Assembly: GCA_018806915.1 (NCBI GenBank)
Contig: JAGKQI010000093.1
Span: forward strand, 992,001-1,056,000
DNA: 64,000 bases
Direction of reading: 5' to 3'
Origin: Phytophthora colocasiae
Taxonomy: Eukaryota; Oomycota; Peronosporomycetes; Peronosporales; Peronosporaceae
The position numbers and the translations under genes were made by a program. Shown here in pieces: positions 3,500 through 47,599 of the stretch (position 1 is its first letter; each line of letters starts with the position of its first letter). A model generated the notes under the pieces. That model was not told the DNA's origin. It ran no database searches and saw nothing but the letters and a program-made list of their open reading frames with translations.

Positions 3500-3558
3500 C
3501 CCCTCTCCCCTAGAGGGGCCAGTCTCTGCGCCTGATCTCTCACATGGAGATCAGGCGC
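3500..3558. repeat. Two adjacent perfect inverted repeats
   Basis: cccctct (3500-3506) pairs with agagggg (3512-3518), and GCGCCTGATCTC (3528-3539) pairs with GAGATCAGGCGC (3547-3558), a 12-bp perfect stem with a 7-nt loop. No gene is associated. It may be part of a decayed LTR or a small non-autonomous element. Confidence 0.7.
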
Positions 3559-3559
3559 A

Positions 3560-4560
3560 ATAAAACCTATGGAAACTACCGCGCAATTCGCCACTTTACC
3601 AAACCGTAAAAATTCCGCCGGGTCTGACCGGTTCCAAACGGACCGGTACTACTGTATCAACTATTAGATACATCTTAAGAGAATGACCGTTCAATACATC
3701 TCCTTTTCTCCCTTGAACACCAAGACCATGGGGTCAGCAACAAACACACAGAGTCAGCAAGGCGAATGAGATGCGTGATTACAGGTAAGTTTGTTCTGTC
3801 TATCATTTCTTCTGTTGAGATGAGTATCACTTTGATTTTTTTTTTATATATATATACGAGAACACAAGAAGGACATTGATGAGACTCGCGCATCTGACAG
3901 CACGATGACAGTGCTGGTTATGGACTTCTCGCAGAACCTGACGATACCGTCTGTCACCACCACGCCATCTCAATGGTACTTCTGTTTTCTCCTCGTGGCG
4001 TATATGTTTGGAATATCCTACGAGAACGAAGGTACACAAACTTAATTCCTTCAAGAAATAGCGTCTGGTAGTGTACACTGATAATTGCTCCTGTCCAAAC
4101 TAGAACAACCACGCCATCCTCTTCTTGCTGGAACAAGTACAGATCACTTGGACATATGAAAGAAACTCTACTAAATGCAATTCCAGGCAAATATCGATCT
4201 ATTAGACTGTTGCGGTCCAGGAAATGACTTGAATTCAGTATGGTAAGTCCAACCGGACATATACCACTTAGAGTTTCAATCGGAAATCGTGGGCGATCTT
4301 CACCTGGGCTGTCCAGAATCCATATCCATACTGTCCACTCGTTCTTTTTTGGCTCACAACGTCCAAATAAAGTCATTTCTGAGCCAATCGGCGTTCATAC
4401 CACGCTAGCTTCTTCCACCATTGCCGCCGCCACCACCACCAGCCTGACCATCAGGACTGTTTCTGTTTTTTGCTCGCTGTAAAGCAGAAAAACATAGCAT
4501 TTGAGCTTCGGAGGAGTCGCGCGGCTCTGCCTATACTCAATATGCATTTGTATGCTCACT
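3560..4560. other. No recognisable gene
   Basis: AT-moderate sequence with one open minus-strand frame (3954-4376, 140 codons) that has no recognisable motif, no good start context and no visible splice partners. I regard it as chance or unidentified transposon debris. Confidence 0.4.
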
Positions 4561-4563
4561 ATC

Positions 4564-4905
4564 TTAAGAACTTTGAGGTAACACGTCCGTTAGCGGGGTC
4601 TGGTTCAAGGGGACTGGCAGGTTCGTCTCGTCATCAGTTGGCGGCGGTACCGCTAGATGTAGCGATGCAATTGAGAATGTGTGCATGGATAACCCCATAT
4701 TAATAGCGTTAATCGGGCAGGTAACGAACGAGTCCTTGTCCGGAAAAAGTGAAAGACCTTGTTCTTCGAATGTTTTAGCTTGAATCAGCCGGTTGAAGAG
4801 GACGCTATCCGCAGACAAGGGCAGGCTGGACTTTGAAATGAATGTGAGGTCTGACGCCCTCCCAAATGCGTATCACATGGCCACCAACGGGACCGCATCT
4901 GGGTG
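4564..4905 (-). pseudogene. Crypton tyrosine recombinase fragment
   Basis: The minus strand reads FGRASDLTFISKSSLPLS, then EEQGLSLFPDKDSFVTCPI. These match the region around the first catalytic arginine (GRxSDL) of oomycete Crypton recombinases and align closely with the better-preserved copy at 20.6-22.4 kb (FGRTSDLALVRKQNLSV, EEPGLSLFPDTDS). Only this part remains; the HxxR box and tyrosine are missing. Upstream and downstream coding is lost. Confidence 0.7.
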
Positions 4906-5599
4906 ATCCGTTTCCTCTACTGCGTCGTAGTAAAAACCAGCAGGTCATCTTTCGTACACGCAGGAGCTTTGTCAACCATGCCTCCCTTTTACCGGAGAAG
5001 GCAATGGCGGTCCAATATTCATCTCATCTTGAGTAGTTGCTGCTCGATGCTAGACAGCCTTGAGGGTAGCACTCCAACAACCAGTTTTTCACGTTCCGAT
5101 AAATGTAGAGTTCCTGTGTTTCGCGGCGACGTCGACGTGATAATGAGCTCAACCAACTGGTATCCTACTTCCCCTCTCTCTCATCTAGGCAATCACTGGC
5201 CCTAGAACTGGCATCCGGCGCCTCTGAGGTATCCATCTAACTGGCTCATTCCTTCGTCGTCGACGCCAGCTTCGGAAGAACCTACGACTCATCATTGGCA
5301 CAGTCAACGGCTCCGATGGCAAGCGATATACCAACGTTGTTGGCGACACTTTTGGATGAACTGAATCAATAGGAACGATGGACACAATGCTGACTATGCC
5401 TCACGTTTGTTGCGCGTAAAAAAGCCGGGTGCGGGCTGAACTAAATTCAAGATAATCAAGTGAATTCCGGACGCTAGTAGACGAATGTTCGTTCATACCA
5501 ATGCAATGGAGATAGCGTATCTTCTGGATTAAGATATAAACTCCGATGGCTTTATCGACATGGATCTAACTGATACCATAATAAAGGAGCACCTTTAGA
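4906..5599. other. No recognisable gene
   Basis: Only short open frames (66-100 codons) without family motifs. Probably transposon-derived spacer. Confidence 0.4.
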
Positions 5600-12651: not shown

Positions 12652-12868
12652 ACTGGCTTACTATTTCTAGAATGTTCTGTGTGTATCCAGGTACAGGGTC
12701 CTTGATAACAGTGGTTTGCAGCAGGAGTTGATTGCGATCGATCATGGCATTCAGAGCGCCAGTGCAGTGAAGAGTGCGCAAGTGCTTCAGGACAGCGCCA
12801 GACCCGTGTGACGTCGTCTTGTTCTCGGCGATGAGTGCCAGAGTGCTGCTTCCGCCAGCTTGCCAAGT
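12652..12868 (-). pseudogene. Crypton recombinase, C-terminal end (left of gypsy insertion)
   Basis: Minus strand continuation of the Crypton at 20608-22369 after removal of the gypsy insertion: the frame running into the junction (VLSLG) continues KLAEAALWHS. A frame change follows, then HGSGAVLKHLRTLH, NAMIDRNQLLLQTT and PGYTQNILEIVSQ with TAA at 12652-12654. The join falls exactly at the CCAAG duplication, so the interruption is a clean retrotransposon insertion. Confidence 0.8.
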
Positions 12869-13326
12869 GTAATGGGTCTACCTAGACCTATTAGATGGCG
12901 TACACGTGCGCTTACGTGTATGAGGAAGCGTGCAATTAGAATAGACTTAATTTAAGTATACTTATTTAAATAAGTATAATTAAATCAAATATAACTAAAT
13001 TAAACTGCAAAATACCGTAAAATGAGACTGTTATTGAATTTGGCATAAGCCAATTATGGACCTCCTAAAACTGTTTGTTATCTATTTCTAAAGGGTCTGC
13101 CAACGTGTGGTTGGTAGAAACTCTGCTCAGTGATTGGTAGAAATCCGTTATTTTCTACCAATAATATGCACAAATGCACACGAACCACCCAATAATGTGG
13201 TTCGCCCATGTATCCTTTGGTGTGTACAGCACACCAATGTCTGAGGCCCATTTCCAACCTCTAACAGTTATCCTAACTGTTAGAGTTACAAGTGGTACTA
13301 CCACTTGTACGTGTAACCCCGTTACA
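12869..13326 (-). repeat. LTR of element 1 (3' LTR with respect to pol)
   Basis: TGTAATGGG...CCGTTACA. It differs from the other LTR at three seen substitutions plus a possible 1-bp indel. Contains hairpins such as CTAACAGTTA/TAACTGTTAG and ACAAGTGGTA/TACCACTTGT near its right end. Confidence 0.95.
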
Positions 13327-13427
13327 CCATCCCCCCGTTAAGATTCGACGTATCGGTCTCGATACGTCAATCAACAGAACTTGACAAGACCGTCAAGTTC
13401 CCAAGAGAAATCCGAGTTCATTTCGCA

Positions 13428-14975
13428 ATGGACTCGCCAACGCCCACGTCTCCGTCCGCTACTGCGGACGCGCAAGCCTCACCTGCTGCCTCTGCAGCAG
13501 GAACAACGACCTCAGCAGTGCTCACTAGCACTGCTGCTTCCAGCGGTCCGACAGAGAAGCTCTCTGTCACCAAGTACCATGCTCTCCATAAGGAGAAGCA
13601 TGAGAAGAAGAAGAAGTCTTCTTCACTAGCAGAGATTAAGAATCCTGCTGTCCCTCTCAAAGAACTCTTTGGAGAAGACTACGAAGACATCCTCGACTAC
13701 GAGGAGGATGTCGAGGAGGGGGAGGTTGATGTCAAGGCTCCCGCTCCCGTGTCTTCGTCTGAAGACACGTCAGACCCACCCGTGGGATCTCGACGACCTC
13801 GTGATGAGGCCTCGGACGCTTCAAGCTCGAAGCGTCCGCGCAGTGATGATGAAGCGTCCCCCATGTCGAGGGCGCTCACTGCCCCGCGCACTGATCCGCC
13901 AGTGCGCACACCATGGATGACTACTGTGGCAGAAATCCATGACCGGTTCGGTGCTAGTTCACCACCGAACCCGATACTGTTGTACTCATGCAACAGTATC
14001 AACGACGACGATGTCGCCGCTAAGCTTGTCTTTGAGTCTGAGACTCAAAGACGCGACTACTATATCGGGCTCTTCCATGAGCTCCGATTCTATGCAGCGA
14101 AGAAGACTTCGCGCAAGAGCAAAGTGCCAGAGTGGCAGGCACTTTGTCAGTCGTGGAACGCCTTTGTTGAAAACTTCAACAAAGGCCCGAAGGCATATCG
14201 CGAGCGCGTTGCTGCGACTCGCGATCGCTACTACACGTACACTACGCGTGGTAAGTGTGAACGCCTCCATGATCAGTCCATGGAAGCGGTGATCCCATGT
14301 GCCGTTCCCTTTGGCACACCCTGTCCGTGTTGCCGACCCTTGGCAACACGTCTCACCGAAAGTGATCTCTTGGGGTACACGGTCGTCCGTGTACCCGATC
14401 ACATCAAGGAGCTCCGTGGTCGTATTGTGCCACGCGAAGCTCCGAGTGCTGTGGCTGACCGCAGCACTCCTCGTGCAGAACTTACCCCTGCAAGTTATGG
14501 TGGGCTTCGTACGCCCTCACCATTTCCGGAACGTCCTCCATCAGGACGTTCCGCGGCTCCCATGTATCTCGATGGGGAGGAAATCCTCTCCAACGAACAC
14601 GAAAACGAACCCCTTGAGAGTTCGTTCTCTTATGAGCCACAATCCGCTCAACAATCCAGCGGATCGCTCCACGCGCGTCGCGCAACGGCGGCGGAGGGGG
14701 CGGGAACACTCCCTCCGTATGGTCACCGCTATGACCATGACGATCGTGCCCTGCACGATCGAGTTGCTGCGCTGGAGCAGACACAGAGCGCTGAGATAGC
14801 TGCTCTGAAGCAGGAGGTTCGTGTCCTCCGTGCTGAGGTCTGCGAGGCAGCTCAGACTGCCTCGAACCTCTCGTCCGGTCTTGGGACGAGAGTGAACCGG
14901 TTGATCAACCGTGTCGACGGTCTCGAGAAGGCCTTCCAGGCCTCTCGCACTCCTCAGTCGGACTACCAGCCCTAG
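13428..14975 (+). CDS. Antisense coiled-coil ORF of element 1 (unknown function)
   Basis: An uninterrupted 515-codon ORF on the strand opposite gag-pol, with an ATG 102 bp inside the 3' LTR, so it could be transcribed from that LTR in antisense. In order: an Ala/Ser/Thr-rich N-terminus (1-45); a basic patch (HKEKHEKKKKSSS, about 50-65); an acidic stretch (LKELFGEDYEDILDYEEDV, about 78-100); a likely nuclear signal (SSSKRPRSDDE, about 130); a more globular part (about 160-320) with Cys-rich PCPCCRP; a Pro/Ser-rich linker; and a C-terminal coiled coil (DRVAALEQTQSAEIAALKQE..., about 440-500). It overlaps the chromodomain coded on the other strand. No known family recognised. The open frame over 1.5 kb of an otherwise frameshifted element suggests selection or recent intactness. 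Confidence 0.6.
   Translation: MDSPTPTSPSATADAQASPAASAAGTTTSAVLTSTAASSGPTEKLSVTKYHALHKEKHEKKKKSSSLAEIKNPAVPLKELFGEDYEDILDYEEDVEEGEVDVKAPAPVSSSEDTSDPPVGSRRPRDEASDASSSKRPRSDDEASPMSRALTAPRTDPPVRTPWMTTVAEIHDRFGASSPPNPILLYSCNSINDDDVAAKLVFESETQRRDYYIGLFHELRFYAAKKTSRKSKVPEWQALCQSWNAFVENFNKGPKAYRERVAATRDRYYTYTTRGKCERLHDQSMEAVIPCAVPFGTPCPCCRPLATRLTESDLLGYTVVRVPDHIKELRGRIVPREAPSAVADRSTPRAELTPASYGGLRTPSPFPERPPSGRSAAPMYLDGEEILSNEHENEPLESSFSYEPQSAQQSSGSLHARRATAAEGAGTLPPYGHRYDHDDRALHDRVAALEQTQSAEIAALKQEVRVLRAEVCEAAQTASNLSSGLGTRVNRLINRVDGLEKAFQASRTPQSDYQP
14482..14784 (-). pseudogene. Chromodomain of element 1 Pol
   Basis: The minus strand reads WIVERIVAHKRT...VRFRVRWRGFPPHRDTWEP then EDVPEMVRAYEAHH, a canonical chromodomain (aromatic residues, WxP motif, terminal helix) as found at the C-terminus of chromovirus integrases, where it directs insertion to particular chromatin. 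It is separated from the integrase part by stops and frame changes. Both strands are open here. Confidence 0.85.
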
Positions 14976-15300
14976 GTAGTCCGTGCTGCACGTACGGCTT
15001 CAACCGCCCGACGTAGAAGGTCGGGTGGAGCCTCATGCTGGACGGTATGTCCAGCCGGTACGCGTTACCATGCCGTTCAAGTACTTTGAACGGCCCAATG
15101 AATCTTGGAGCAAGCTTGCTTGCTCCAAAGTCAGACACTGCATGTTTAGGCAGGTTTTGTGTAGCTAACAAAACTAATGAACCCACTTTGAATTCATTTA
15201 TGTTGCCCCTACCAACATTATCAGCGTTCAGCTTCTGTCGATCGACAGAAGCTGCGATAGCATCCTGGACAAACTGTATGGCAAGAAGTGTTTACACTTC
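14905..15300 (-). pseudogene. Integrase C-terminal (GPF/GPY-like) part of element 1
   Basis: The minus strand reads FKVGSLVLLATQNLP, LAPRFIGPFKVLERHGNAYR and LHPTFYVGRLKPY, the GPY/F module. Compared with element 2, about 160 residues between DPRFTA and this segment are deleted, removing the catalytic Glu (PQTDGQTERVNR block). Confidence 0.85.
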
Positions 15301-15305
15301 TTGTT

Positions 15306-18300
15306 TCAGAACCGCGCTGTGAAGCGTGGATCACGGTCCGACACAATGTCGAGCGGCATGCCATGGTGTTTGAACACCATGTCAACAAACAGTCGCGCAG
15401 TCTGCGCGGCTGTAACAGTAGCCGCAAGATGAACCATCTTGCTGAATCGGTCCACAAAGACAACGATGCCCGTCCTCCGCTTGCTGTCAGGCGGAAGACC
15501 GAAGACAAAGTCCATGGACATGGACTGCCAACACTCCGACGGAGTCGGTAGTGATTGAAGAGGAGCCTGCGAGAACTGTGCAGGCATCACGCGTTGACAA
15601 ACCTCGCAAGCACGTACGTACTTGCGCACCCCACTTGTACTGGTGGTGCCAGTAGAAGTCACGCGTGAGAAAAGTGTATGTCTTCTCACGACCCGGATGC
15701 CCTGCCGTGGGGGCATCGTGATACTCGAACATGATCCTCAACCGGAGGTCATGATCATTCGGAACGACAATGCGATCTGCATTGTCGTCTACTGCACTGT
15801 ACAACAGTAGGCCTTCGTGTACACGATAGCGGTGTACACGAGCTCGAAGATGAGGGGTTAGCTTCCGACGTGCCACGTCGGAAGGTGCTGCGAGGAACTC
15901 CAGCAGCCCCTTCGCGTCTGCATCCCTTGCATACGCGTTCTTCACGTCGTCAATCAACGTTGACGACGGCACACTTGTCCTCACGACGCCAACTGCGTTG
16001 GCGTCGACCGTCTCCGCATAGTCAGGTCGACGCGATAACGCGTCGGCCACTACATTGAGTCTTCCGGGTTTGTACTCTACCCGGAAGTTGTACTCCGCGA
16101 AGAAGGACAACCATCTCGCCATACGCTGCGAGATGTGCGGCGACTTAATCGCCGTACGCAATGATGCGTGGTCTGTATAGACCACGAACGGTCTACTCCC
16201 AAGTAGATACACTCGGAACTTTGCGAGTGCATACTTCATGGCAAGGAGCTCCTTGTCATGTACGGGATAATTACGCTCAGCTGGCTTCAGCTGACGCGAT
16301 TGATAATAGACTACACGATCACGCCCTTCGTGATCTTGTTGCATCAATGCACATCCGATTGCAAAGTCGGATGCATCGCACACTACGTGGAATGGACGAT
16401 CTTTGTCCGCCACGGCCAAGATCGGCGCTTCAGTCAAGCCCTGCTTGACTGCACCGAATGCCTTCTCGCACTCGGTCGTCCAAATCCACTCAGCTTCTTT
16501 CTTAACAAGCTGTGACAACGGGCGAATCTTGCCCGCGTAGTTCTCCACGTACTTGCACCAGTACGTGGCAAGTCCAAGGAACTGCCTCAGTTCCTTCACA
16601 TTGGATGGCGTGGGCCATTCATTGATCACTCTGACCTTCTCTGGGTCAGGGCACACGCCGTCTTTCCCCACGAGACACCCCAGCACGGGTATCTCGCTCG
16701 CCCCGAAGATACACTTCTTCAGGTTCGCATAGAGCTTATGTTTCCTCATAAGCTCTAGCAGCTTCCGGAGATGCACCTTGTGCATCTCAATGTCCGTCTT
16801 CCCGTTCACAGCCCGGCTGTGGACGAACACGTCGTCGAAGTAGCTCGGTGCGAAGTCGCGCACCGAGCGCAATAGATGTGTCACGCATCTATTGAACGTC
16901 GCAGGGGCGTTCTTAAGCCCCTGTGGCATGACGAGCCACTCCCAAAGCATACCGCTTGGAGTGCTTACCGCAGTGAGAGGGATGTCCCTCTCACGCATGA
17001 GGATCTGATAGAATCCATCACGCAGATCTAGAGCACTGAAGATAGTGCTCAAGGCCATCGAATCGATGATAACATCTTTTCGCGGTATCGGCGTCTGCGC
17101 CGGTATCGTCGCATCGTTCAACTTGTTGTACGCATGAACGATGCGCCAGCCGCCCTGTGGTTTCTTAACACAGAACGTTGGGGCACTGTGCGGGGACTTT
17201 GACTCCCGCACTTGACCTGCAAGACGACGACTTTCAAAGAAGTCGTCGATCGCTTGCACTTGTTCACGCGGCAGTGGCCACTGTCGTGTAACACAGTACT
17301 TCGTGCCCGGCACGAGATCAATCTCGTGCTGTACGCCCTTGTCCTTCGGAAGCTCCGAAGGAATCTCGTCCGGGAGTACATCCTTGTACTCCCGCAGAAC
17401 TTCGTAGTAGGGACTCGACCTCAACGAGTCCCAACTCTGCTCTTCGAAGCACTGCTTCTTAGTCTTCGCACTGAGGGAGTCATCACCCTCAGTGATCCCA
17501 TCGACGACGAGCTGCTTCAGCTCTTCGGCTTCGCGATCCACTCTCTCGATATCCGAGAGAATGCAAATTTGTTCGATGCGTCCATCGTACAAGTCTCGCG
17601 CGAAGCGCTTCCAACTCATCGTTGGAAGTGTGGTCAACGCCGACGCACTCGTCGGCAGATTCTCCAACCGCATCCTCTGGTACTGTAACCCAGTACCAGT
17701 ACGTGTCAAGACGTTCAACGTCTCGACACTCGGTGTCTGCACTGCGGATACACCCGTCTCAGTCCCGGACTGAGACTCGCGCAGCTCCCTGAGCTTGCGC
17801 CGCGAAGGTCTACCATCGAGCCCGGCTCCAGGTGCTCCACGTCCAAGGCATCGCACCTTGGACGGGACGTTATCGCAATCGTCAGCGGATTCCTTCCGCT
17901 GACTCGCACTATCAAGCCCGGCTTGAGTGCCGCTCATCGCGTGCAGCGCTGCTGCACGTGAGCACGCAGGTTGTTCGGGTGCTGGGCGTTTGCAACCGCC
18001 GGCACCTCCTGCCGCGCAGTCGGTTCCCTGGACCGCTGCGCCTCCATCCGCTCCCGGAGCGGATGAAGCAACCGCATCGTCAACTCCCGGAGTCGACGTG
18101 CTCTCGCTAGCTTCCTGCGCTAGCGAGTGTTCGCTTGTACACGCATCATCAGCTCCCGGAGCTGATGCACGATCGCTAGTTCCCAGAACTAGCAGCGACG
18201 CGCCAGTGGCGTCAGCTCCCAGAGCTGACGCACGCCTTTCGGTTCCCCGAATATTATTTGCTTCGTCAACTCCCAGAGTTGACGCGACGTCGTCAGCGCG

Positions 18301-19155
18301 ACCCTTGGGGGCTTGAAGTACCTCCAAGGATACCGGTAATACCGGTATTTTACCTTCTCTCAGGAGAATGCGATTCACCTGATCATCACTCATGTGACAA
18401 ACATCATTCAGATGTTTATGCGTCAGGTGATTCACATTCACCTGACCATCACTCATGTGACCGCGACCCTTCGGCTCAGATTTCTGAGTCGACACACATT
18501 TTCTCCCAACGACTTCCTGAGTCGTTGATGGTCGCCGGCGGCGATCGGAGGCAGCGGCGGCCGCTGCTGCCTCAACTGGGGATCCACATGCACCGGCCGG
18601 TGCATGTGCAGCACTGACAGGGTCATCGCTCTCTGTCGCGCATGTGTTGTTGAAGCGTACGAGTATACGCTTCTCCCAGTTGATCACCGGGTCATGCCGT
18701 GCAAGCCACGGCATGCCTAATACCAAGTCGAACTTATCGTCTAGATCCAAGACGATAAGATCTTCTACAAACGTCCTTCGTTTGTAAGAGAAGCGCACAC
18801 GGACTACGCGCTTATCAGTCCTCACGGTGGCACCTGTTGCCAACCGCACCTCCAACACGCCGCGAGGCGTGTCGGCCTCTTCGAAGTCAAGCCTTCGAAG
18901 ACTTCCCTGTCGAACAAAGTTGTTCGACGCGCCCGAGTCCACTAGGGCACGAAGAGAGTTCGCTCTCTTCGACATCACGTTCAGGATGACAAGGTTTGGC
19001 TTGTCATCTTGCAGCTTACAGCGAGAAACCTTCTCGCTGGGGGCAGCAGTCCTCATCGTCGCGTGTCCAAGCTCGACACGCGAGACTGCATCACCAGTAG
19101 GACGCCCCGCGCCTACTGGTCCTTGGCGTTTTTTGAACGCCCGCCCGCTGTGCAC
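15306..19155 (-). pseudogene. Pol polyprotein of element 1 (protease, RT, RNase H, partial integrase)
   Basis: One open frame runs from about 19155 to 15487 (1222 codons, entered by frameshift from gag rather than its own ATG). In order: aspartic protease ALVDSGASNNF and DLVLGMPWL; a long low-complexity spacer; RT with GFYQILM, MPQGLKNAPATFNR and the active site YFDD; retroviral-type RNase H (VCDASDFAIG, HDKELLAMKYAL, TDHASL); integrase zinc site (YHDAPTAGH...). A 1-nt frame change near 15620 moves to a second frame ending near 15306 with CEVCQR, SMDFVFGLP and VSDRDPRF. The third catalytic residue is deleted. Confidence 0.93.
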
Positions 19156-20099
19156 TCGCGTGCATAGTGACCGATGTTACTACACTTGTAACATCGAACC
19201 TTGCTGTTCCTACGCTGCTGTTGACCAGCAGTCGTAGCACTCGAGAGGTCCATAGGTTCCGGACCTCCCGTCTTCACAACAGGACGCGCCGGCTTCGGCG
19301 CGTTCGCATGGAGTTTAGCTTGACGCCGGCTAAACTCCTCTTGCATTGCAAGGCTGATCGCCTCCTCGAGAGTATTCGGATACTCTCGGAAGAGATATGT
19401 TTTGACGGGACCATCTCTTAGTCCCTTCATGAACGTGACGACCTTGGTCGCCTCGTCGATCGGGTTGGCCACTATGTTCGATACCAAGTATCGAGCACGC
19501 TGGGCAAAGGTGTGAACATCATCCTTGCCCTACTGCAGATCGAGAAACTCCGCTCTCGATCTGAACTCGTTCTTCGGGGGCTCAAACGCAAGCTTGAGCT
19601 CCTCTTTGAACACCTCGTACGTGTCGAAGCACGTAGGATCCGAGAGTCGGCGCCCATAGGGCTAACTGCTCGCACGTCCGCCAAGACATGACATGGCGAA
19701 CGCGACCTTCGACATCGGATCGACGATACGTCGAGCCGCAACGGCTGTGTCGAGTTCGACAAGCCACCGAAGGAGGGTCTCGTCCTCCTTCCCCGTGTAG
19801 GTACTCACGTGGAGTTTCAACGACTCCACGCGTGGCTTAGGGGAAGCCACCGAGGCAGCAACATCTCGTTGCTCCTTAACAATGTACCCCAGAGCAACAC
19901 CGTGTTGCTCTGTCGGCGATAGCGTACGAAGCATCGTCGCTACCGCTGCCTCTCCAATGACTTGTGAAAGTCTTTGGAGAGCTTCCCACTCTGGATCTGA
20001 CAGGTGGGCACAGTCCGTGCGCGTCACGGACATGTGAGGGGTCCCAGCGGATCCCTCATCCATTGGGGAGTTCTCTACCCCGCGTTCGTATGACTCCAT
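19113..20099 (-). pseudogene. Gag of element 1
   Basis: The ATG at 20099 (MESYERGVENSP...) leads into a retrotransposon gag domain (LHVSTYTGKEDETLLRWL). A frame change near 19670 and an in-frame TAG near 19530 interrupt it; then VTFMKGLRDGPVKTYLFREY and the CCHC zinc knuckle CYKCSNIGHYAREC, ending at 19113. It overlaps the pol frame by about 40 nt, compatible with ribosomal frameshifting in the intact ancestor. Confidence 0.88.
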
Positions 20100-20148
20100 A
20101 CGAACGAACAGCAGTCGGTCGTGGGACGGACTACAAAGTGCTACCAGG

Positions 20149-20607
20149 TGTAATGGGTCTACCTAGACCTATTAGATGGCGTACACGTGCGCTTACGTGT
20201 ATGAGGAAGCGTGCAATTAGAATAGGCTTAATTTAAGTATACTTATTTAAATAAGTATAATTAAATCAAATATAACTAAATTAAACTGCAAAATACCGTA
20301 AAATGAGACTGTTATTGAATTTGGCATAAGCCAATTATGGACCTCCTCAAACTGTTTGTTATCTATTTCTAAAGGGTCTGCCAACGTGTGGTTGGCAGAA
20401 ACTCTGCTCAGTGATTGGTAGAAATCCGTTATTTTCTACCAATAATATGCACAAATGCACACGAACCACCCAATAATGTGGTTCGCCCATGTATCCTTTG
20501 GTGTGTACAGCACACCAATGTCTGAGGCCCATTTCCAACCTCTAACAGTTATCCTAACTGTTAGAGTTACAAGTGGTACTACCACTTGTACGTGTAACCC
20601 CGTTACA
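20149..20607 (-). repeat. LTR of element 1 (5' LTR with respect to pol)
   Basis: Near-identical partner of 12869-13326; followed on the minus strand by CC and the primer-binding site TGGTAGCAC, whose first eight bases fit the acceptor end of initiator Met tRNA. Confidence 0.95.
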
Positions 20608-22369
20608 CCAAGGCTCAAGACGTGGCCGCGATAGCCGGATGCAGTGTCATCCAAGATGAACCCGTCGCGTAGGAAGAGCTTCATGAACGTTACCAGCAGC
20701 TTGGTATCCGACTTCTGTTGCTTTGAGACGGGTGCTAACTTCAGGCGTGGCTCCTGAGCGTACCATGCGAACCACGTCGCATGAAGGTGAGTCACTGATC
20801 ATCGTCTTCGCTTGGGCTTCTCTTGGTCTTGGCTTGGTTGGTGCTGACGCTTATTGCTTCTGTTTTGTGCTGACACTTATTGCTTCTGACTTGTGCTGAC
20901 TTTCCTTCCATTTTAGCTTCTAGACTATCTATCCGCGCATCTTGGCGCTTGATGTGCTCCATTAACTGGTCAATCACACTACGTTGGTGGTCGATGATCT
21001 TGTTCTCGTTGGTTGGTTCTTTGCGAGGTGGTGGCAAGGTACGACGACCAAGCTAGCAGTTCAGCGACCGACGGTCCCGCGTGTTCAACAGTAGCTTCCA
21101 TGCGTCGGACAGCAAGTCCATCTTCGCGAAGCTTCTTCATCAGCGGGTAGTGGATGATCAGGTAAGCCGTCAGAACGTCTGCCACCTGCTGACTTATGTT
21201 GTACTTGGAGCTTTCCAGCTGATAGCAGGCTGTGTATAGAAATAATAGATAAAATGCGCTGGACATCACCAATCTCGAGCTGCGTCTCTGCGTCGAATGG
21301 TGCTAGGTTGAGCGCCTGCACCTCGCTTTGTGTGTCGTATCCGAGTGCCTTGCTAACCTTGTGATCTTCTCTGCTTGTGTTGAAGATATCGTTGAAGCCC
21401 TCGTTGGTGGTGCTCATGTTCCAGAGCCCGTCGCAGCCGTTAACGTGCTGTGCCCCGCCACGACGAATGGAATGCGACGTGAGCGCTTCCGCAACGCCGG
21501 CGGCGTTCTTCACTCTATCCAGCTCCCGGTTCACGTGCGCGCAGATCGTTGGAGCGGTTGTTTCAGCAGCAGTTGGGACAGCGGGGGCAGCAAGGGTGGT
21601 GAAGTCTTCAGGGTTGTTCAGGATCTCCAGCAAAGGTGTGGCAGGGGTCAAGTTGACAGCAGCTGTGACTTGGAGAGCAGAAAGGTTGCCGATCAGGCCG
21701 ACACAGGGCGCGTCCTGCGTAATCAACGCGATGACTATGGAGTGTAGCGGGCAGCTGACGAGTCGGTGTCCGGGAAGAGAGACAGCCCCGGCTCTTCGGC
21801 TGTCTTCATGCAGATGAATCGGATGAAGAACACCTCAGCCGCGTCGACTGACAGGTTCTGTTTCCGGACGAGCGCCAAGTCGGACGTTCGTCCGAACAGG
21901 TACCACAGCAAATACAGCAACGCTGCATCTTGATAGTCACTAGGAGAACGTGCATTGTTTTACAAATACAACATCGTCTTTTTTTTAATCCTTCTTTGAG
22001 CATGGTGGTGCTTTGTTCACTACTTTGCCATCTCTTTTCATACAAAAGCCGCCGAGCGTCTTCCCCATGCTCAGCATCTTTGCTTCGACAATTGTCGTTG
22101 CACAGGGAAGACCTCGAACAACCATCTAAAATACTACATAGCGGTATTCCTGGAAAGAGGCTTTCCTTTCTTACTCTCATTAAAGGCAAGATACATACCA
22201 AACATATCCAATTCAGACACAAAACACTTACCTGTAGCGTCCTGTTCAATGCATTGTTTGACACAGTCAAAGGCAATGTTTTCGCATCTGACGGATGTGT
22301 TTTGAACGCACTGATGGCGGTATCTCTGGCACGGTTGGTGCTGCCAGGTTTGAGCTCATCCAACCCCAT
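20608..22369 (-). pseudogene. Crypton tyrosine recombinase (main part)
   Basis: The minus strand, from 22369: MGLDELKPGSTNRARDTAIS, then a likely intron (GTAAGT after the RTLQ codons); a piece VEAKMLSMGKTLGG... near 22100; then LLYLLWYLFGRTSDLALVRK (first catalytic Arg), EEPGLSLFPDTD, and SHSIRRGGAQHVNG (HxxR box) near 21480; then QVADVLTAYLIIHYP, a coiled coil (IDQLMEHIKRQDARIDSLEAK) and a C-terminal region LLVTFMKLFLRDGF. Frameshifts near 21050 and 20800 and stops break it. It is completed by 12652-12868. Cryptons move through a circular DNA intermediate using this recombinase. Confidence 0.85.
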
Positions 22370-37273: not shown

Positions 37274-39778
37274 TCAGCCAACTACACGTCCAGTAGCGCG
37301 GCGAGCCGTATCCAGGAGCGAAATCACGGCTTGGCGATCGGAATCAGCGTAACCCAGCTCAATCAAGCGCTGACTGAACTCCTGGAGCGTAAGCGCGCCA
37401 CACGAAAGACTGCTCATGCCAAGCATCACGTCCATTAGGATTTCCGGCCGTTTGATCTTCAGCAGTGCACCGCGCTCAATAAGACCCATCGAGGGGAACG
37501 ATAATCTCCACAACTCGCGGAATTTACGCTCTGCCACCTCTGGGTCTTCTGGAGGAGGAGGTGGAGCAGTGGTAGCTTCAACGTTACTCGTCTCCATTTG
37601 AAACGAACGAGTGCGAGGTGCATCAGGATGGCGGCCACTGGTCTCAATCTGCTGCAATGTATCAACCACACCTTCAGATGAGCTGCGCTCGCGGAAAAAT
37701 CGTTCACGTGGTGACTGAAGCTCCCGTCGGAATTGTTGACGCGTACGCTCCTGCTGGTGATTGCGCGTGTGCACCTGACGATGGTTACTGTTGGCGTGCC
37801 GCGAGGTAGTGGACCCGTGCAGCTGCTGTTGTTTCGGCCCGCGCTGGCTGTATTCCTGAATGTTTCCAGCCTTCCCCACCGAAACAAATACCTCAGCCTC
37901 GTCCGGCAGCGCAACGATCTCTTCCACGGTACGAATAGGCTCGCCATCATCTCGAGAAATGTCAATAATCTGGTTCTCCTTGACACCGAAACGGATCTTG
38001 AGTGCATCCATGATCACCTGCGGCTCTGTTCCTTCGAAGTATGAAATGCACACAGTCCTTCCAAATGTCGATAAACTGTTCACATTCAGATGCTTGCAAC
38101 GCTGCTGCATTCTCGACTGAAGGCCCTTACGGGACCTTGGCAAATTGATCTGCCACAACCTGCTCACACACACCTGACAAACACGTCGAGGCCGCTGCTC
38201 ATCAAGTGCTCCATTGCTAGCGGCACTCTTTTCGCGTTCTGGATTCGCCAGACGTGTGTTCGTACACTTGCTGCAGAAGGCTTTGCGGCAATAACTGCAC
38301 TTGTGCTTCCACTCCAATAACGAGAACATTTTGCGACAGCGAGAGCAATTTTCTGTCTTGTTCGAGTGCACCTGCAGCGGAACAGGTCGGTCAGGGATCA
38401 AATTCTGCAGCATCGTATCAACCTCGTCCGGTGTGATGCTGTTGCCCTTGTACAGACGGAACTCTTCCAACATGAGGCACTTGACGAAACCTTGGTTGGG
38501 ATATACGACGCCACGGCTAGCCATGGCAAAATTCACGGCAGTGACGAGCGACCAGTTGTTGGCGCGCATTAAATACATGATGACGAGTGTGGCCGAGCGC
38601 GAGATACCCTGCGTGCAATGAACCAGGACGCGACCGTGTTGGGTACGCTTCGCTGACTCGATAAATCTGTACGCTGAGTCGAAGAACGGGCTAATGTCTA
38701 CTTCCGGGCGATCCTTGATGGTGACATTCAGGTACTTGACTCCATCGTTCTCGAACGTGTTGCCTACATCCAGACTCGCGTTCACGACATGAGTGATGCC
38801 CAAATGGGACACAACCTGCTTGGACTGCGCATGCCACATATTGCCTAGAAAGAGGAAACCCTCCAGGATTTCATTCGGGTAGTTCAGGTTGTGAGTGCCG
38901 CTCTTGGTGCGCGTCAACTGTCCTGAAATGTCATCTAGCAATGCCGACGTCGTGTAGAATGGGTAACGATACTTGAATGTGAGGAAGCCGTCGGACAACA
39001 GTTTGACGCTGGTCACCAGTCCTTCCTCGATAATGAGTGTCTCAAGCTTTCGCAGCCAGTTGCAAGTTTCAGAACCATCGGATTCCTCCGCTGATGTCTT
39101 CTTCACCGCATCTCCAAACAACACAACGTCACGTAGCTTCCTCTTCTTACTGGAGAACAAATATCGTTGTTCCTCGAGCAAACCGCTCTCTAAGTCATCC
39201 AATGTTTTGCAACCTTGCATGGGCGGAATAGATATGGCGGACGGAATGGAATCGTCTTCATACTGTTCTCTAGACCTCGTGTCAATAAGAATCATGCCAC
39301 GTGAAGCCTGCACCTGGTTGTAAAGCCAGCGACAATTGACTTCTCCGCGACGCACTAGACGCTTGCGAATCGGCGCCACGGGTTCAATCTCATCAGTAGG
39401 GCAGGTGCCGTCCGTGGCTGTGTCGTCCTTCACGACGTCTGTTGCTGCGCCCTTGTTGCTGGTGGCGCCGTTGCTCTCATCGCCCACCGACATGTTGCTC
39501 CTGTGTTTCTGTTTCTGCGTCACTGTAGTCAATGTAGTCGTACAGGTCGTTGTAGGGTTGAAAACGTGGCCGTTGGGTGTGGTCAGCGGTGCGATGGGAT
39601 CGGGGGAGGAGGACGCCGGCGACGGCGCTACTGGCATTCGCTGACTGCCTGCTTTGCCGCTTCGGTAAGCGAATGCTCTTCTAGGGGGCGTCGGGGCGTG
39701 GAGGCAAGTGGCAGAGATCCGGAGCCCGAGGTCTGGTTCATAACTGCTGGGCGTGGTGGAGACTGCTGCACTGTACAT
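37274..39778 (-). CDS. Rhodanese-like / dual-specificity phosphatase / FYVE-like protein
   Basis: Single-exon protein of about 834 residues from ATG 39778; a start at 39493 (MSVGDESNG) is also possible and removes a low-complexity leader. In order: rhodanese/Cdc25-like domain (NCRWLYNQVQASRGMILIDTRSREQY, about 150-280); dual-specificity phosphatase with IKDRPEVD (general acid Asp) and the signature VLVHCTQGISRSATLV (Cys and Arg present, near residue 385); FYVE-type zinc finger (CSRCRKMF...HKCSYCRKAFCSKC...VCQVC, about 485-545); a ubiquitin-like/doublecortin-like stretch (RTVCISYFEGTEPQVIMDALK, about 570-640); a Gln/Arg-rich linker; and a C-terminal helical part. The rhodanese plus phosphatase layout is that of MAP-kinase phosphatases; the FYVE suggests endosomal PI3P binding. 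Convergent with the PH gene. A shorter paralogue lies at 43354-44448. Confidence 0.9.
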   Translation of the reverse strand: MYSAAVSTTPSSYEPDLGLRISATCLHAPTPPRRAFAYRSGKAGSQRMPVAPSPASSSPDPIAPLTTPNGHVFNPTTTCTTTLTTVTQKQKHRSNMSVGDESNGATSNKGAATDVVKDDTATDGTCPTDEIEPVAPIRKRLVRRGEVNCRWLYNQVQASRGMILIDTRSREQYEDDSIPSAISIPPMQGCKTLDDLESGLLEEQRYLFSSKKRKLRDVVLFGDAVKKTSAEESDGSETCNWLRKLETLIIEEGLVTSVKLLSDGFLTFKYRYPFYTTSALLDDISGQLTRTKSGTHNLNYPNEILEGFLFLGNMWHAQSKQVVSHLGITHVVNASLDVGNTFENDGVKYLNVTIKDRPEVDISPFFDSAYRFIESAKRTQHGRVLVHCTQGISRSATLVIMYLMRANNWSLVTAVNFAMASRGVVYPNQGFVKCLMLEEFRLYKGNSITPDEVDTMLQNLIPDRPVPLQVHSNKTENCSRCRKMFSLLEWKHKCSYCRKAFCSKCTNTRLANPEREKSAASNGALDEQRPRRVCQVCVSRLWQINLPRSRKGLQSRMQQRCKHLNVNSLSTFGRTVCISYFEGTEPQVIMDALKIRFGVKENQIIDISRDDGEPIRTVEEIVALPDEAEVFVSVGKAGNIQEYSQRGPKQQQLHGSTTSRHANSNHRQVHTRNHQQERTRQQFRRELQSPRERFFRERSSSEGVVDTLQQIETSGRHPDAPRTRSFQMETSNVEATTAPPPPPEDPEVAERKFRELWRLSFPSMGLIERGALLKIKRPEILMDVMLGMSSLSCGALTLQEFSQRLIELGYADSDRQAVISLLDTARRATGRVVG

Positions 39779-39784
39779 GTACAC

Positions 39785-40509
39785 TCAGAGGCGCTTGGGC
39801 AGAGCAAGGCCAAGCAGCGAGATAGGATGGGGCTTAAGAGCCTGTTAAATAAAATGCTATTGGAAATATCCGGATTAGTTATCCAGACATTCCTTTTACG
39901 ATATATAGCTGTTTGATGGAGAAGGAACTTGTGACAGTTTATACGTACGATTTCGCAGCCACCTCCAGCTCTCTCACCGGCTCTCACTGTTTGGACCATA
40001 CATGGCGCAAGTGATTCCACGCGCCGCTTCTTCTTCCACGTTAAAGTTACAGCATTGCATGACACAACTGTAGGCTGAATCCCGTCGTCACCGGCGCTCA
40101 ATGCTGAGCGTGGACACGTTCCACTCGGAATCCGTGGGCAATCACGTCGATTGGATGGAAAAGTGAGAAGATGGCGCAGCTGAAAGCTGCGTGCCAAGCA
40201 CCGGCATCATCTCCGCCGTGGACTCCGCGGGGCTGCTGTATGTGTGGACTGTTTGTCGACGAGGATCCTGTCGGATGTTGTGCGGGGTTTCGCCCCCGCT
40301 CACAAGATGGGGCAGCTTGGATGGTCGTCCGCACATGGAGTGGAAACGCCATTGACCTGGTCAACGACAAAATACTATAAACACACAAAGATGTAGCGTT
40401 AAGCACAGCAAAACCTTCATGCACACAGTGCAAGAGACAGTTTGCCAGCGCACGTCGAGCACGACAGATCTGACTTCATCCCTACCCCTCCCCCTGTTTG
40501 ACGCTATTT
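39785..40509. other. Upstream region without confirmed gene
   Basis: Contains opposing short frames (plus 40171-40380; minus 40098-40433) without recognised motifs. Presumably the promoter side of the phosphatase gene. Confidence 0.4.
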
Positions 40510-40873
40510 GACTGTTTGACGCTATATCCCCAAGACGACGATGGACGCTGCTGGAGCTCTAGGGCGATGACGGCTACTGCAGGAGCCCTAGGGCACGTAG
40601 GAATTACCCGTGGTGAGGTTGGCGCTGTGGAGGGTCAAAGGAAGACTCGTGCGCGCTGCTGCTCGCGCTTGTGTGTGCTGCTGGTTGTTTGACTGTTTGA
40701 CGCTATATCCCCAAGACGACGATGGACGCTGCTGGAGCTCTAGGGCGATGACGGCTACTGCAGGAGCCCTAGGGCACGTAGGGATTACCCGTGGTGAGGT
40801 TGGCGCTGTGGAGGGTCAAAGGAAGACTCGTGCGCGCTGCTGCTCGCGCTTGTGCGTGCTGCTGGTTGGGCTC
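40510..40873 (+). repeat. 181-bp tandem duplication
   Basis: GACTGTTTGACGCTATATCC begins at 40510 and again at 40691; the two about 181-bp units are nearly identical (for example aggaattacc versus agggattacc). After the second copy, shorter GCTGGTTGGGCTC repeats continue to about 40921. It lies just outside the left side of the MULE transposase and may be part of its terminal region. Confidence 0.9.
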
Positions 40874-40980: not shown

Positions 40981-42849
40981 CTACTGACAATGCAGGCCCA
41001 TTTGCTCGTGGCCTTCCTGCAGCTTGGCCAGATACGCCCCCGCGTTTCCGCTTGTTGCTCCCCGATAGACTAGCGTATCTCGACCAGCAGCGTCAACACC
41101 TCCTACAGTTCCAAGAGCATACAGTAAGTGCACACAGGAAGCCTGCTTCGACCACAGGCGACACGGGCAGACGCGTGACTCGATATCTACTGCCCAGCCG
41201 GTAGCTGGCATCCCTAACAGCTCCATTCGCGTGCTTTCGACACCAAGCTGAGCGGAGACGGGTAGGTCTTCTCGAGAGCGGCGCTCGTTGACGTTAAACA
41301 CGTGGATTGCCGGAGATGCTTGCACGTAAACGATATGATTCGCACATTCCGAGTTCGAACCGAGCAGAAACGCGATGGTGTTGCGCTCGGGCTTGTACTC
41401 GCGAAGCAAGCCAGCTCGAGCCATAGCGCTAGCGCGCCTAACCATGCGCTCATCAACTCCAGGCTCCAAAGCAAAGGCCCGAGCACGCACACTTTCACCT
41501 CGGCACAGGACGAGAAGCTGCTCAATGAGGGCGCCAACCTTCAGCTTGCGCCTTAGCGTGACGTCACGCTTAATAGCGGCATTGTACGTCTCACAGGGGT
41601 TATTAGTGGTGGCATAGCCGCCCAGCGTATGATAGCATTGCCATCGCCACACACGATCGTTTAACCACACCGTTCTGAAGTAGCTAACGAACCGATCTAG
41701 CTGAGTGTATCCTTCCCATTTTTGAAGAATCTCATCCTTGCGCTCTTGAAACTCCAAATCGCATCTGGAAAAGTGCATTTCGTGAACGTCGCGCATTATC
41801 ATTGCTGCGATGCTGGTGTCGAAAGCCCGTGTTTTCTCGTAGATCTTCTTAGCCACATGAAAGTAGCACATCAAAAACTTATACGGGCTGCTGTCTCCTC
41901 CAAAACTTTCATTAAGCGCATTCTATTGCGCGCTATCAGCATCTCCCATTGCGAAATGAACGCGAAACGGCCTTCCAGTCACTTCAAAAAACACTTTTGA
42001 CAGCATTGACAGAACCTCAGCGTACTGAGGCTGCTGCTGCTGGGACACAATAAAAATTGCAAGAGGATGAAACTTTCTTGCACGATCCGAAATCCCAATT
42101 ACTATAACCGGGTACCCAGTCTGGGTGAGCTTGTACGTGGCGTCCACGTGCAAAATGAAAGAAGCAGGATCACGGTCAGCTTGACGGAGCAGCTTTTTCG
42201 TGGTGATCCCAACCACAAAAGGGTGAGCATCGCTCCCATTTCCGACAACTGGTCTGCCATCGCTATCCGTTCGCCACGTAAACGTGAAAGCTGCATTGTC
42301 TTCTTCGCGGCCTGTAAAACCCGTTTCACGTAGCTTCAGGCGAATAGCGCCCATGCGGTCACTGCCGCCCAGCGTTGTCGTAACATGGTGGTAAACAAAA
42401 CGCTGGACAGCAGAGAGCGGTGGAGCTGTTTCCTCATCGAGGCCAAAGCGCTGAATTAGCGCTCTCCAAATACGAACAGGGCGTAGACCCTGCGTGGCCC
42501 AGTCTCGGGCGAGTTCCTTCATGGTAGGCGTTAGGCGAGGCCTGGCGTGGGCTCGCACGTGGGTAACGTGCGAGAAGAGCTCGTCCACGGCCACCACATC
42601 GTGCTCCTGGCACGAACGGACGCGCCCACGCCATGGGCACGGTGTTGCTGATGCTGCCGCAGAGCACGCTTCGCACCTACAGCGTAGCAGCTGCGTCCGC
42701 ATCGCGTGCGGAGCAGCGTCAGCGCAGACATTGCACTGGCCAACGTCACTCCATGCAATGGAGAATGCTTTGAGCGACTCCAGCAGTATGTCGGCGTCCG
42801 AGCGAGGCATGCTTGGGGTGAGGGTGGTCCAGGAGAGCGGCCGAGGCAT
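40981..42849 (-). pseudogene. Mutator-like (MULE) transposase with one in-frame stop
   Basis: Continuous minus frame of 623 codons broken only by one TAG at 41923-41925. In order: an N-terminal Cys/His region (CNVCADAAPH, CRCEACSAAA) probably binding zinc; a helical region; the MULE transposase core (FILHVDATYKLTQTGYPVIV with the first Asp, RVHFAMGDADSAQ with the second just before the stop, and YNAAIKRDVTLRRKL after it); and a SWIM zinc finger CPCRLWSKQASCVH near the end. The frame being intact except for one stop suggests a recent loss or a suppressible stop. It lies between the two phosphatase paralogues; terminal inverted repeats were not found. Confidence 0.88.
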
Positions 42850-43353: not shown

Positions 43354-44448
43354 TCACATGATGGCGCACTGCCCGTCTTTCGATGACGATACCAGCTCGA
43401 GTGATCGGGATGATCGCCGTTGCAGCCTCGCCGGCCGACTTGGCAAGCAACCGCTTGTCAGTAGATCGAGCTCGTCCTCTGTCACACTGCACTTGTTGTG
43501 GAATATCCGCCGCTCTTCTTTCATCAGTGCGCGGAGAAACCCTTCATTCGGGACAACCACGCCGCGGCCAGAGCGGACGAAATTATATGCTTGAGCCAGG
43601 GACCAATGGTACGCCCGCATGACGAACAGGATCACAAGAGTCGCTGATCGAGAGATCCCCTGCGTGCAGTGCACCAGCACCCGACAGGGCTTGCCGTCCG
43701 AAGCTGTTGATCGTTGCGCTTGTGAAATGAACTCGTACGCACCATTGAAGTACTGCGCAATGTTTTCCTCGGGTTTGTCTGCAAGCTTGGCGTTGAAATA
43801 CTTGACGCCGTCTTCCGCGAAAACGTTTTCCACCTTTCGCGTGGCATTCACGACGTGAGTGATCCCCAAGTGCTGAATGACTTGCTTGCATTGCGCTTGC
43901 CACATGTTCCCCAGAAACAAAAAGTTGCCGATAATTTCATTTGGATACGAGACCTGGTGCTCGCCGCTGTGCAACACGCCGTCGTCCACAATGCCAAGCG
44001 ACGTATAGAACGGGTAGCGCTTGTGGAACACCGCAAAACCTTCACACAGTACCTTAATACTGGCGGCACGTCCATCTTCAATCAAAAACTGTTCCAGCTT
44101 GTACAGCCATGATTCGGGATACGGGACGTCCTCGTTGTTCGCAAAGAGCAGCAAGCCACGAAGCGAGCGCTTGGCAGTTGACAGCCCCATATTCTCGACG
44201 TACTCATCATAGGTGCTACCGTTGTCATCCTCAGGAGGTGGCAAGTTGATAGCACCAAGCACTGTATTGCCTTGGAATTGATTGCTTGGCCGACAGTCAA
44301 TGAGCACCTCGCCCACGTGAATATTGTTGAAAAGCCAGCGACTGTCCACCACACATCGACGCAACGTGCGTTTCTTGCAGACGATGGCAGTCGCCTCCTC
44401 CTTCAGAGTTTCTGCTGGCGCCACTTGTCCAAGTTGCGCCTCGCCCAT
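43354..44448 (-). CDS. Rhodanese-like / dual-specificity phosphatase, short paralogue
   Basis: Single-exon protein of 364 residues (ATG 44448). Rhodanese-like domain (VDSRWLFNNIHVGEVLIDCRPSNQF, about 30-150), then YPNEIIGNFLFLGNMWQAQC and the phosphatase signature RVLVHCTQGISRSATLVI near residue 255, with ADKPEEN as the likely general-acid loop. It aligns along its length with 37274-39778 (same NYPNEI..GFLFLGNMW..Q.KQV..HLGITHVVNA frame) but lacks the N-terminal leader and everything after the phosphatase, including the FYVE finger. Probable local duplication followed by C-terminal loss or gain. An initiator-like TCACTTTGG lies on the minus strand at 44509-44501, about 60 nt upstream. Confidence 0.93.
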   Translation of the reverse strand: MGEAQLGQVAPAETLKEEATAIVCKKRTLRRCVVDSRWLFNNIHVGEVLIDCRPSNQFQGNTVLGAINLPPPEDDNGSTYDEYVENMGLSTAKRSLRGLLLFANNEDVPYPESWLYKLEQFLIEDGRAASIKVLCEGFAVFHKRYPFYTSLGIVDDGVLHSGEHQVSYPNEIIGNFLFLGNMWQAQCKQVIQHLGITHVVNATRKVENVFAEDGVKYFNAKLADKPEENIAQYFNGAYEFISQAQRSTASDGKPCRVLVHCTQGISRSATLVILFVMRAYHWSLAQAYNFVRSGRGVVVPNEGFLRALMKEERRIFHNKCSVTEDELDLLTSGCLPSRPARLQRRSSRSLELVSSSKDGQCAIM

Positions 44449-45999: not shown

Positions 46000-46083
46000 C
46001 TTGGTAGCACTTGTAGTCAATCCTACGCCTACGCGGGTAGATTGATTACCTGAATCCTCTGTGGCCAGAAGTAGTTGGCCACC

Positions 46084-47436: not shown

Positions 47437-47599
47437 GGACTTCGACAGCGTGGAGTCGTTCATTGTCCTCGAGATGGACAAGTACGACTTGATCCTAGGA
47501 TGCCGTGGCTTGAGAAGCACGAGCCCTGGATCGATTGGCGCGGCAAAGCCATTGGGGCTAGCCGGCCTGCAGTCTCTGACAGAGCTTTGGTGAGTCATG

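Follow-up and report, generated by a model that had tools for sequence, protein, structure and literature searches.

Perfect short hairpins saturate one clade of Ty3/gypsy retrotransposons in Phytophthora colocasiae

A retrotransposon saturated with perfect hairpins

The window studied here is a 64,000-nucleotide stretch of Phytophthora colocasiae DNA from an assembly of 92.5 Mb, and our subject within it is element 1, a retrotransposon (12863–20610) in which perfect short hairpins crowd every part of the sequence. Element 1 is a chromodomain Ty3/gypsy element, a kind known as the chromoviruses, with gag-pol on the minus strand. This assignment rests on long terminal repeats (LTRs) that flank gag and pol, a gag zinc knuckle, the pol order of protease, reverse transcriptase (RT), RNase H and integrase, and a terminal chromodomain. 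The LTRs at 12863–13329 (3′ in gag-pol orientation, minus strand) and 20144–20610 (5′, minus strand) are 99.1% alike and contain the same three hairpins, at 13133–13162 (11 bp), 13259–13285 (12 bp) and 13287–13309 (10 bp) in the first and at 20414–20443, 20540–20566 and 20568–20590 in the second. The gag region (19113–20162, minus strand) consists of two open frames, one at 19113–19526 that contains the zinc knuckle (PF00098) and one at 19665–20162 that has no Pfam match. A pol open frame of 1222 amino acids (15490–19155, minus strand) encodes the protease, RT, RNase H and the start of the integrase; the remaining pol, split into three open pieces in the window copy (14485–15737, minus strand), encodes the integrase core, a Tf2-1-like SH3 domain and the chromodomain (PF00385). 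Opposite the 3′ end of pol lies an antisense open reading frame (ORF) of 515 amino acids (13428–14972, plus strand). This layout corrects that of an earlier, sequence-only reading of the window in its LTR limits, in placing gag-pol on the minus strand and in identifying the plus-strand ORF as the antisense one.

The element has close relatives in other oomycetes. Among the 120 RT matches listed from a total of 1743, identity is 92% to proteins of P. cinnamomi, P. ramorum and P. cactorum and 71–77% to proteins of Globisporangium and Peronospora. The antisense ORF has 480 database relatives at E ≤ 0.001, and among the 120 of these that were listed, every match with a named organism is from Phytophthora, in which many species are represented.

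The sequence-only reading had described a saturation with hairpins that crosses the LTRs, pol and the antisense ORF, coding and non-coding parts alike. Stems were indeed counted in every part, and the saturation proved stronger than first claimed. All ten of the hairpins listed in that reading are exact at their coordinates, among them those at 14160–14186 (12-bp stem), 14527–14553 (11-bp stem) and 15862–15884 (10-bp stem, with a loop that reads GGC in the sense orientation and is inverted to GCC in one relative copy); the hairpin at 15984–16006 has a stem of 10 bp instead of the 9 bp reported. With loops of 3–12 nt, element 1 (12869–20607) contains 132, 103, 73 and 29 perfect stems of at least 7, 8, 9 and 10 bp, respectively, compared with means of 3.8, 0.83, 0.17 and 0.13 and maxima of 9, 3, 1 and 1 in 30 dinucleotide shuffles. 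Against 100 codon-preserving shuffles, pol (15490–19155) has 51 stems of at least 8 bp (shuffle mean 1.3, maximum 4) and the antisense ORF (13428–14972) has 20 (mean 0.7, maximum 4), and a further 13 stems of at least 7 bp lie at 19156–20143. Hairpins with stems of at least 8 bp take up approximately 32% of the element. The stem lengths are not distributed as chance would have them, because the counts do not fall off with length: there are 31, 31, 44, 20, 7 and 3 stems of 7, 8, 9, 10, 11 and 12 bp, and none is longer than 12 bp. The claim of saturation thus survived the dinucleotide shuffle, the codon shuffle and a comparison with the density in neighbouring DNA (below), all three of which had been fixed beforehand as tests that could overturn it.

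Several simple causes were considered and set aside. Chance is ruled out by the dinucleotide and codon-preserving shuffles, and base or codon composition by the shuffle controls together with the folding energies described below. Other symmetries do not account for the hairpins, as mirror and direct repeats at equal spacings are not comparably enriched. Known RNA families are also ruled out, with no Rfam match at gathering score in 12800–20700. The hairpins are not regularly spaced (coefficient of variation of centre spacing 0.68), and by eye no enrichment of the stable loop motifs GNRA or UNCG is apparent in the printed loops.

The searches admitted only loops of at least 3 nt by construction. 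When spacers were examined separately, 7-bp arms in element 1 numbered 6, 16 and 12 at spacers of 0, 1 and 2 nt, compared with 28–48 at spacers of 3–9 nt. The inverted repeats cluster at short spacers, with little excess in element 1 from 15 nt upward (3, 1 and 0 at spacers of 15, 20 and 25 nt); in element 3, a related element of the window, 6-bp arms number 11, 7 and 6 at the same spacers, so that some excess is left.

Among the loci tested, the hairpins belong to one reverse transcriptase clade

The 46 loci around the element-1 family (L001–L046, the window copy included) contain 6.7–13.7 stems of at least 8 bp per kb, flanks included. Three copies that looked divergent are ordinary members of this family, with 97–98% nucleotide identity. 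Two related families share the trait. One is represented in the window by element 3 (45682–53984, plus strand; LTRs 45682–45999 and 53665–53984), which shows an excess of perfect stems with a mode of 6 bp and is 67–77% identical to element 1 at the amino-acid level in the alignable pieces of RT; for the two related families, the main RT alignments show approximately 67–71% amino-acid identity. All three families of the clade found in the genome have a hairpin excess, the third at 4–6 bp, and further families of the clade may be present.

Each family has its own typical stem length. Element 1 has its largest excess over shuffles at 9 bp, the element-3 family at 6 bp and the third family at 4–5 bp; counts began at 4 bp, and the mode of the third family may be lower still. 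These modes were reproduced in a second copy of each family, and the extra hairpins per kb number approximately 25, 25 and 41 in the three families, respectively. In the third family, complement repeats at short spacers are also mildly in excess.

In the loci tested outside the clade the hairpins disappear. Stems of at least 8 bp are absent from all of 14 other Ty3 loci and six copia loci (1.8 kb each), which are near chance at 4–7 bp. The window supplies its own negative control in an open chromodomain Ty3/gypsy pol of another lineage (59853–63932, minus strand; 26% amino-acid identity in RT), which has no stem of 8 bp and is not enriched in stems of 6 bp or longer (its 5-bp stems number 29, against 18.5). 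By position, the DNA at 21–45 kb has five stems of at least 8 bp in 24 kb and is at chance when examined by stem length, most kilobases of 45–54 kb, where element 3 lies, have 3–8 such stems, and the stretches at 1–12.8 kb and 54–59 kb show a mild excess (for example, eight 7-bp stems against 3.5 and five against 1.9, respectively). The hairpins are therefore not a feature of the genome, or of its retrotransposons, at large, as shown by the other Ty3 and copia loci, the chromovirus of the window and the neighbouring DNA. Among the loci tested, the hairpin trait is bound to one RT clade, because the 14 other Ty3 loci, whose RT is at most 36.3% identical to that of the clade, have no hairpin excess. 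No relatives were confirmed in IMG/VR and GTDB contigs.

A second feature runs through the clade. In all three families the antisense strand contains open frames that face the 3′ end of pol or lie beyond it: 13428–14972 (plus strand) in element 1, 3625–5001 (minus strand) of locus L067, and 51196–52371 and 52863–53678 (minus strand) in element 3. The product of the element-1 frame gives no worthwhile alignment to the antisense products of the other two families.

Both strands are structured and pairing is essentially Watson-Crick

Predicted folding energies agree with the hairpin counts. In L020, a copy of the element-1 family with an uninterrupted pol frame of 4173 bases, the sense strand folds at -63.7 per 150 nt, compared with -46.8 in 40 codon shuffles (z -24.8), and the opposite strand gives a z of -29.7. 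The element-3 family has z values of -21.5 (sense) and -17.5 (antisense), and the third family of -8.1 and -9.3. The energy excess amounts to approximately 36% in L020 and 30% in L069, a copy of the element-3 family. For two other ORFs of the window, a phosphatase gene and an ORF of unassigned kind, z is +1.6 to +1.9, and the other Ty3 and copia loci fold in an ordinary manner (z -3.2 to +3.9). The sequence-only reading had suggested a rod-like genomic RNA, which the predictions do not bear out: local hairpins follow one another along the predicted fold, and 80%, 81% and 64% of pairs span at most 40 nt in the three families of the clade, compared with 43–53% in the controls, namely three Ty3 loci outside the clade and one neighbouring stretch of DNA.

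A structure selected in a single RNA strand would be expected to favor G-U over A-C mismatches. In element 1, stems of nine pairs with one internal mismatch are enriched 66-fold for A-C, 34-fold for G-U and 14-fold for other mismatches. The corresponding values in element 3, at seven pairs, are 2.7-fold for A-C, 2.8-fold for G-U and 2.7-fold for the others, and in the third family G-U is not enriched (0.8-fold). The smaller mismatch counts are 14 G-U and 21 A-C in element 1 and 5 G-U and 2 A-C in element 3. Among copies of element 1, shared breaks on one side of a stem yield 12 G-U and 12 A-C oppositions. Pairing in the hairpins is essentially Watson-Crick, without credit for wobble pairs. This symmetry points to an involvement of DNA or of both RNA strands, or to copying as the way the stems were made. 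Selection that acts on a single RNA strand alone is not supported, because G-U does not exceed A-C and the antisense strand is strongly structured.

Hairpins override the protein and turn over between families

The hairpins are placed without regard to reading frame. Stems use the three codon-pairing classes approximately equally, including the class that leaves the least coding freedom, and those that pair third codon positions with third positions make up 15 of 50, 14 of 46 and 23 of 72 in the sets counted. Placement that spares codons is therefore rejected. The cost is visible in the protein. The 183 stem-internal codons of element 1 show amino-acid identities of 0.49 and 0.48 to the other two families, compared with 0.615 and 0.607 for the 654 codons outside stems, and the element-3 and third families compared with each other show an identity of 0.69 in both codon sets. 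On the element-1 branch, hairpins are thus imposed on the protein at a cost in amino acids.

Most stems have turned over between families. Allowing one broken pair at most, 6 of 53 comparable element-1 stems persist in the element-3 family and 2 of 64 in the third family. One stem is common to all three families, with a C-G pair flipped to G-C and six of seven pairs present in element 3, and five hairpin centres coincide within 1 nt between elements 1 and 3 (1.1 expected). Within the genus, stem codons are better conserved than those outside in two P. ramorum homologues, with odds ratios of 2.1 (p = 0.0098) and 2.0 (p = 0.0025). In nine more distant proteins stem codons are less conserved in all nine, significantly so in four. 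These comparisons draw on 18 of the 120 listed RT relatives, and the p values are those of single tests.

Copies retain their stems and invert their loops

Variation was examined in 43 copies of the element-1 family, comprising 27 of the 30 best among 106 scored matches, 12 more of these matches and four full-length stretches, a sample in which young copies close to the window copy are over-represented. The truncated loci L018, L022 and L023 were left out of the alignments; L034 was also left out of the counts of variants and hairpin presence, which thus cover 42 copies, and was kept for loop inversions and rare hairpins. Hairpins are present in at least 80% of copies at 77 of 95 sites.

Private variants occur at 0.146 per site in stems, 0.152 outside and 0.279 in loops, and variants found in at least four copies at 0.0122, 0.0381 and 0.0963, respectively. 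Synonymous variants that are shared (two or more copies) and private number 11 and 41 in stems and 105 and 137 outside (Fisher p = 0.003). As stems defined by the majority sequence are biased, we compared them with matched outside segments chosen by the same majority-pairing rule in 2000 draws, which removes this bias. Shared variants then occur at 0.0301 per site in stems and 0.0463 in matched segments (36 of 2000 draws as low), shared synonymous variants at 0.0103 and 0.0288 (0 of 2000 as low), and private variants at 0.1457 and 0.1399. The data provide moderate evidence that, in the replicating lineage, stems are shielded from synonymous changes of the shared kind.

Mutations concentrate in the loops, with 84 private variants at 301 loop sites compared with 425 at 2806 sites outside (p = 1e-7). 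A-T exchanges are raised approximately threefold among the loop variants, and loop inversions account for part of these variants.

Ten alleles at 9 of 58 hairpins are exact reverse complements of the loop, compared with a mean of 0.3 at control positions, and seven of the ten involve at least two changed bases (control mean 0.13). Examples are AAGGG changed to CCCTT in two copies, and a GCG/CGC pair found in 16 and 12 copies. These exact loop inversions indicate template switching at element-1 hairpins. The sequence-only reading had named template switching that perfects imperfect palindromes as a possible cause; the process is active, and it now appears too rare to keep the stems perfect by itself. 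It seems too rare for maintenance because only three inversion alleles are found in two or more copies, compared with 32 shared stem variants and no compensated pair. That reading had proposed to look for compensatory changes among copies; the stems counted contain no shared compensated pair. Of 12 rare hairpins, 11 are one or two bases away from the common state, and the remaining one is separated from it by a deletion.

In L020, a repetitive run of hairpins with CGG or TGG loops lies at approximately 430–700 (sense), between the protease and RT. Its hairpins occur as two haplotypes with compensated pairs, split approximately evenly among copies, and modular exchange of them may take place. 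In one hairpin of this run, two compensated pairs are segregating.

Other features of the window

The mild excess at 1–12.8 kb covers stems of 6–9 bp, and an isolated perfect 13-bp hairpin lies outside the elements at 3527–3559. Two dual-specificity phosphatase genes (37277–39784 and 43357–44448, both minus strand) have rhodanese-like matches, the second below the Pfam cut-off, and one of the two has a FYVE finger; a MULE transposase fragment (41926–42849) lies between them. A 181-bp unit is duplicated head-to-tail at 40507–40868 (98.9% alike). GGATCC-rich tandem arrays with periods of approximately 21 bp and multiples thereof occupy 55353–55759 and 59307–59681, the second adjoining the chromovirus at 59853–63932.

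Origin and retention of the hairpins

We put at about even the chance that the hairpins originate in fold-back or strand-switch copying by the RT of the clade and are retained by selection on pairing in both strands. Short-range fold-back or strand switching during copying would write the hairpins, and their author would most likely be the element's own RT, because only this clade has them. Pairing in both strands, whether of sense and antisense transcripts or of genomic RNA and minus-strand complementary DNA, would then help the element, and the hairpins would be retained. As an example of such a benefit, we propose that complementary strands are kept from annealing into the long double-stranded RNA that feeds RNA silencing. 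The 25/26-nt small RNAs of Phytophthora are reported to come mainly from transposable elements (PMC3804510). Element 1 codes on both strands, and strands full of hairpins would anneal poorly into double-stranded RNA. A broader form of this proposal, which we offer tentatively and with less than even confidence, is that this RT clade rewrites its own genome into perfect hairpins at the DNA level, of a length set by the family (9, 6 and 4–5 bp) and at the expense of the protein. Hairpin length would then be an inherited property of the enzyme or the life cycle, and the array would keep both strands self-folded and apart.

A number of observations weigh against the combined origin by copying and retention by selection. 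On the side of copying, 32 multi-site private clusters, several of which are misalignments of one truncated copy, show inverted-copy and direct-copy gains of 3 and 2, 2 and 3, and 2 and 2 at three thresholds. No fresh stem-forming change of more than two bases was found in the 43 copies, except for one deletion. Pairs created on the element-1 branch are not confined to one arm (24 of 44 concordant; null 21.9, standard deviation 3.3) and are spread over both arms, so that an origin in one step by arm copying is rejected. The copying origin is something we infer rather than observe, because there is no inverted-copy excess, there are no long fresh stems and the arms are not concordant. A further loop inversion, in the LTR, is found in only one LTR of a pair assigned to a single copy by spacing and orientation, and some inversions may thus follow integration, in the chromosome. 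On the side of selection, private synonymous variants are somewhat fewer in stems (41, compared with 51.6 in matched segments) and shared non-synonymous variants are not depleted there (21 compared with 18.7), which is why the evidence for selection is only moderate. Seven of nine close Phytophthora proteins show no significantly better conservation of stem codons, with three odds ratios below 1. On the side of strand symmetry, the small mismatch count in element 3 favors G-U over A-C (5 vs 2), and the sense strand of element 3 has a stronger folding z than the antisense strand.

Somewhat less likely again is an origin by selection alone, in which ordinary point mutations built the hairpins and selection favored them because folding is required of both strands, whether sense and antisense RNA or RNA and single-stranded complementary DNA, be it for compaction, for packaging or to escape RNA silencing. 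Stems are depleted of shared synonymous variants and equal to other segments in private ones, which fits this account, as do changes spread over both arms, fresh gains in steps of one or two bases, the conservation of stems relative to P. ramorum and the presence of 77 of 95 hairpin sites in at least 80% of copies. However, the frame-blind placement and the lost protein conservation would demand very strong selection, the family-specific stem length is not predicted, and other elements of the same host do without hairpins.

We regard as improbable an origin by mutation alone, in which fold-back copies made by RT accumulate without benefit and proofreading templated by the hairpin as RT copies the element keeps variation in stems low. 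Such a process would produce the loop inversions, the Watson-Crick symmetry, the frame-blindness and the restriction to one clade, but only three inversion alleles are shared, compared with 32 stem variants and, among the stems counted, no compensated pair. Furthermore, there is no fresh long stem in the 43 copies, the arms are not concordant and clusters of inverted copies are not in excess.

Selection for a folded genomic RNA, also raised in the sequence-only reading, holds in part: the variation data give moderate evidence of some selection on pairing, and they do not extend to one RNA strand alone. A genome-scale ordered RNA structure (GORS) like that of RNA viruses, with selection acting solely on the sense RNA, is very improbable. 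It has in its favor the very large folding-energy excess (approximately 36% in L020 and 30% in L069) and positions that are poorly conserved between families, as reported for GORS (PMC7642675). It is largely contradicted by the wobble test, in which G-U mismatches gain no more than A-C, and the antisense z is the stronger one in element 1 (the reverse holds in the element-3 family). An assembly or sequencing artefact can be dismissed, as the same hairpins recur across dozens of copies placed on many contigs, and other sequence of the assembly lacks them.

If the combined reading of copying and retention is correct, a mode of replication, or a demand that both strands fold, dictates the sequence of a whole protein-coding element, which would be an undescribed way for a genetic parasite to shape its own sequence. 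The three related families, whose stems typically measure 9, 6 and 4–5 bp, form together with hairpin-free elements in the same nucleus a natural series suited to testing how RT makes and tolerates hairpins, whether structure protects from silencing and how RNA structure is generated by template switching. Elements as abundant as these might also confound the annotation of small RNAs and hairpins in Phytophthora genomes.

Comparison with known systems

GORS is a property of one RNA strand and tolerates G-U pairs. Element 1 resembles the GORS described for RNA viruses in its consecutive stem-loops in coding sequence, its large energy excess over shuffles and its poorly conserved positions (PMC7642675). 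Folding energy beyond that of sequence-order shuffles is found in both; a structure of one strand with G-U pairs tolerated is not found here. Element 1 differs in being an LTR retrotransposon in which both strands are structured, G-U pairs earn no credit, most pairs are in local hairpins and stem length is typical of the family. The highest energy excess named for GORS is 23.4%, compared with approximately 36% here, the two values having been obtained with different window sizes and shuffles (PMC7642675).

Template switching has been proposed to create and maintain hairpins, and loop inversions have been reported that suggest an interstrand switch (Monttinen and Loytynoja 2022, PMC8794818). 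The hairpins of element 1 share with these the perfect stems and the exact loop inversions. The published cases concern RNA genes (microRNA and rRNA) and DNA replication (PMC8794818), whereas here approximately 100 hairpins fill a whole element of one retrotransposon clade, shared compensated pairs are absent from the stems counted, and multi-base changes are not confined to one arm.

Among retrotransposons, element 1 has the parts of a chromodomain Ty3/gypsy element, namely a gag zinc knuckle, protease, RT, RNase H, integrase, Tf2-1-like SH3 domain, chromodomain and LTRs, and differs in its hairpin saturation and in the antisense ORF opposite the 3′ end of pol. The titles and abstract openings listed from the open-access literature include no report of a hairpin-saturated retrotransposon. 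Ty1 is likewise an LTR retrotransposon whose genomic RNA structure has been studied, including models of the whole genomic RNA; perfect-hairpin saturation is unmentioned in the titles and abstract openings of that work, which is no test of a difference. The nearest known kinds are thus the GORS of RNA viruses and the hairpins made by template switching, of which the first fails on strand specificity and the second, so far, on changes confined to one arm.

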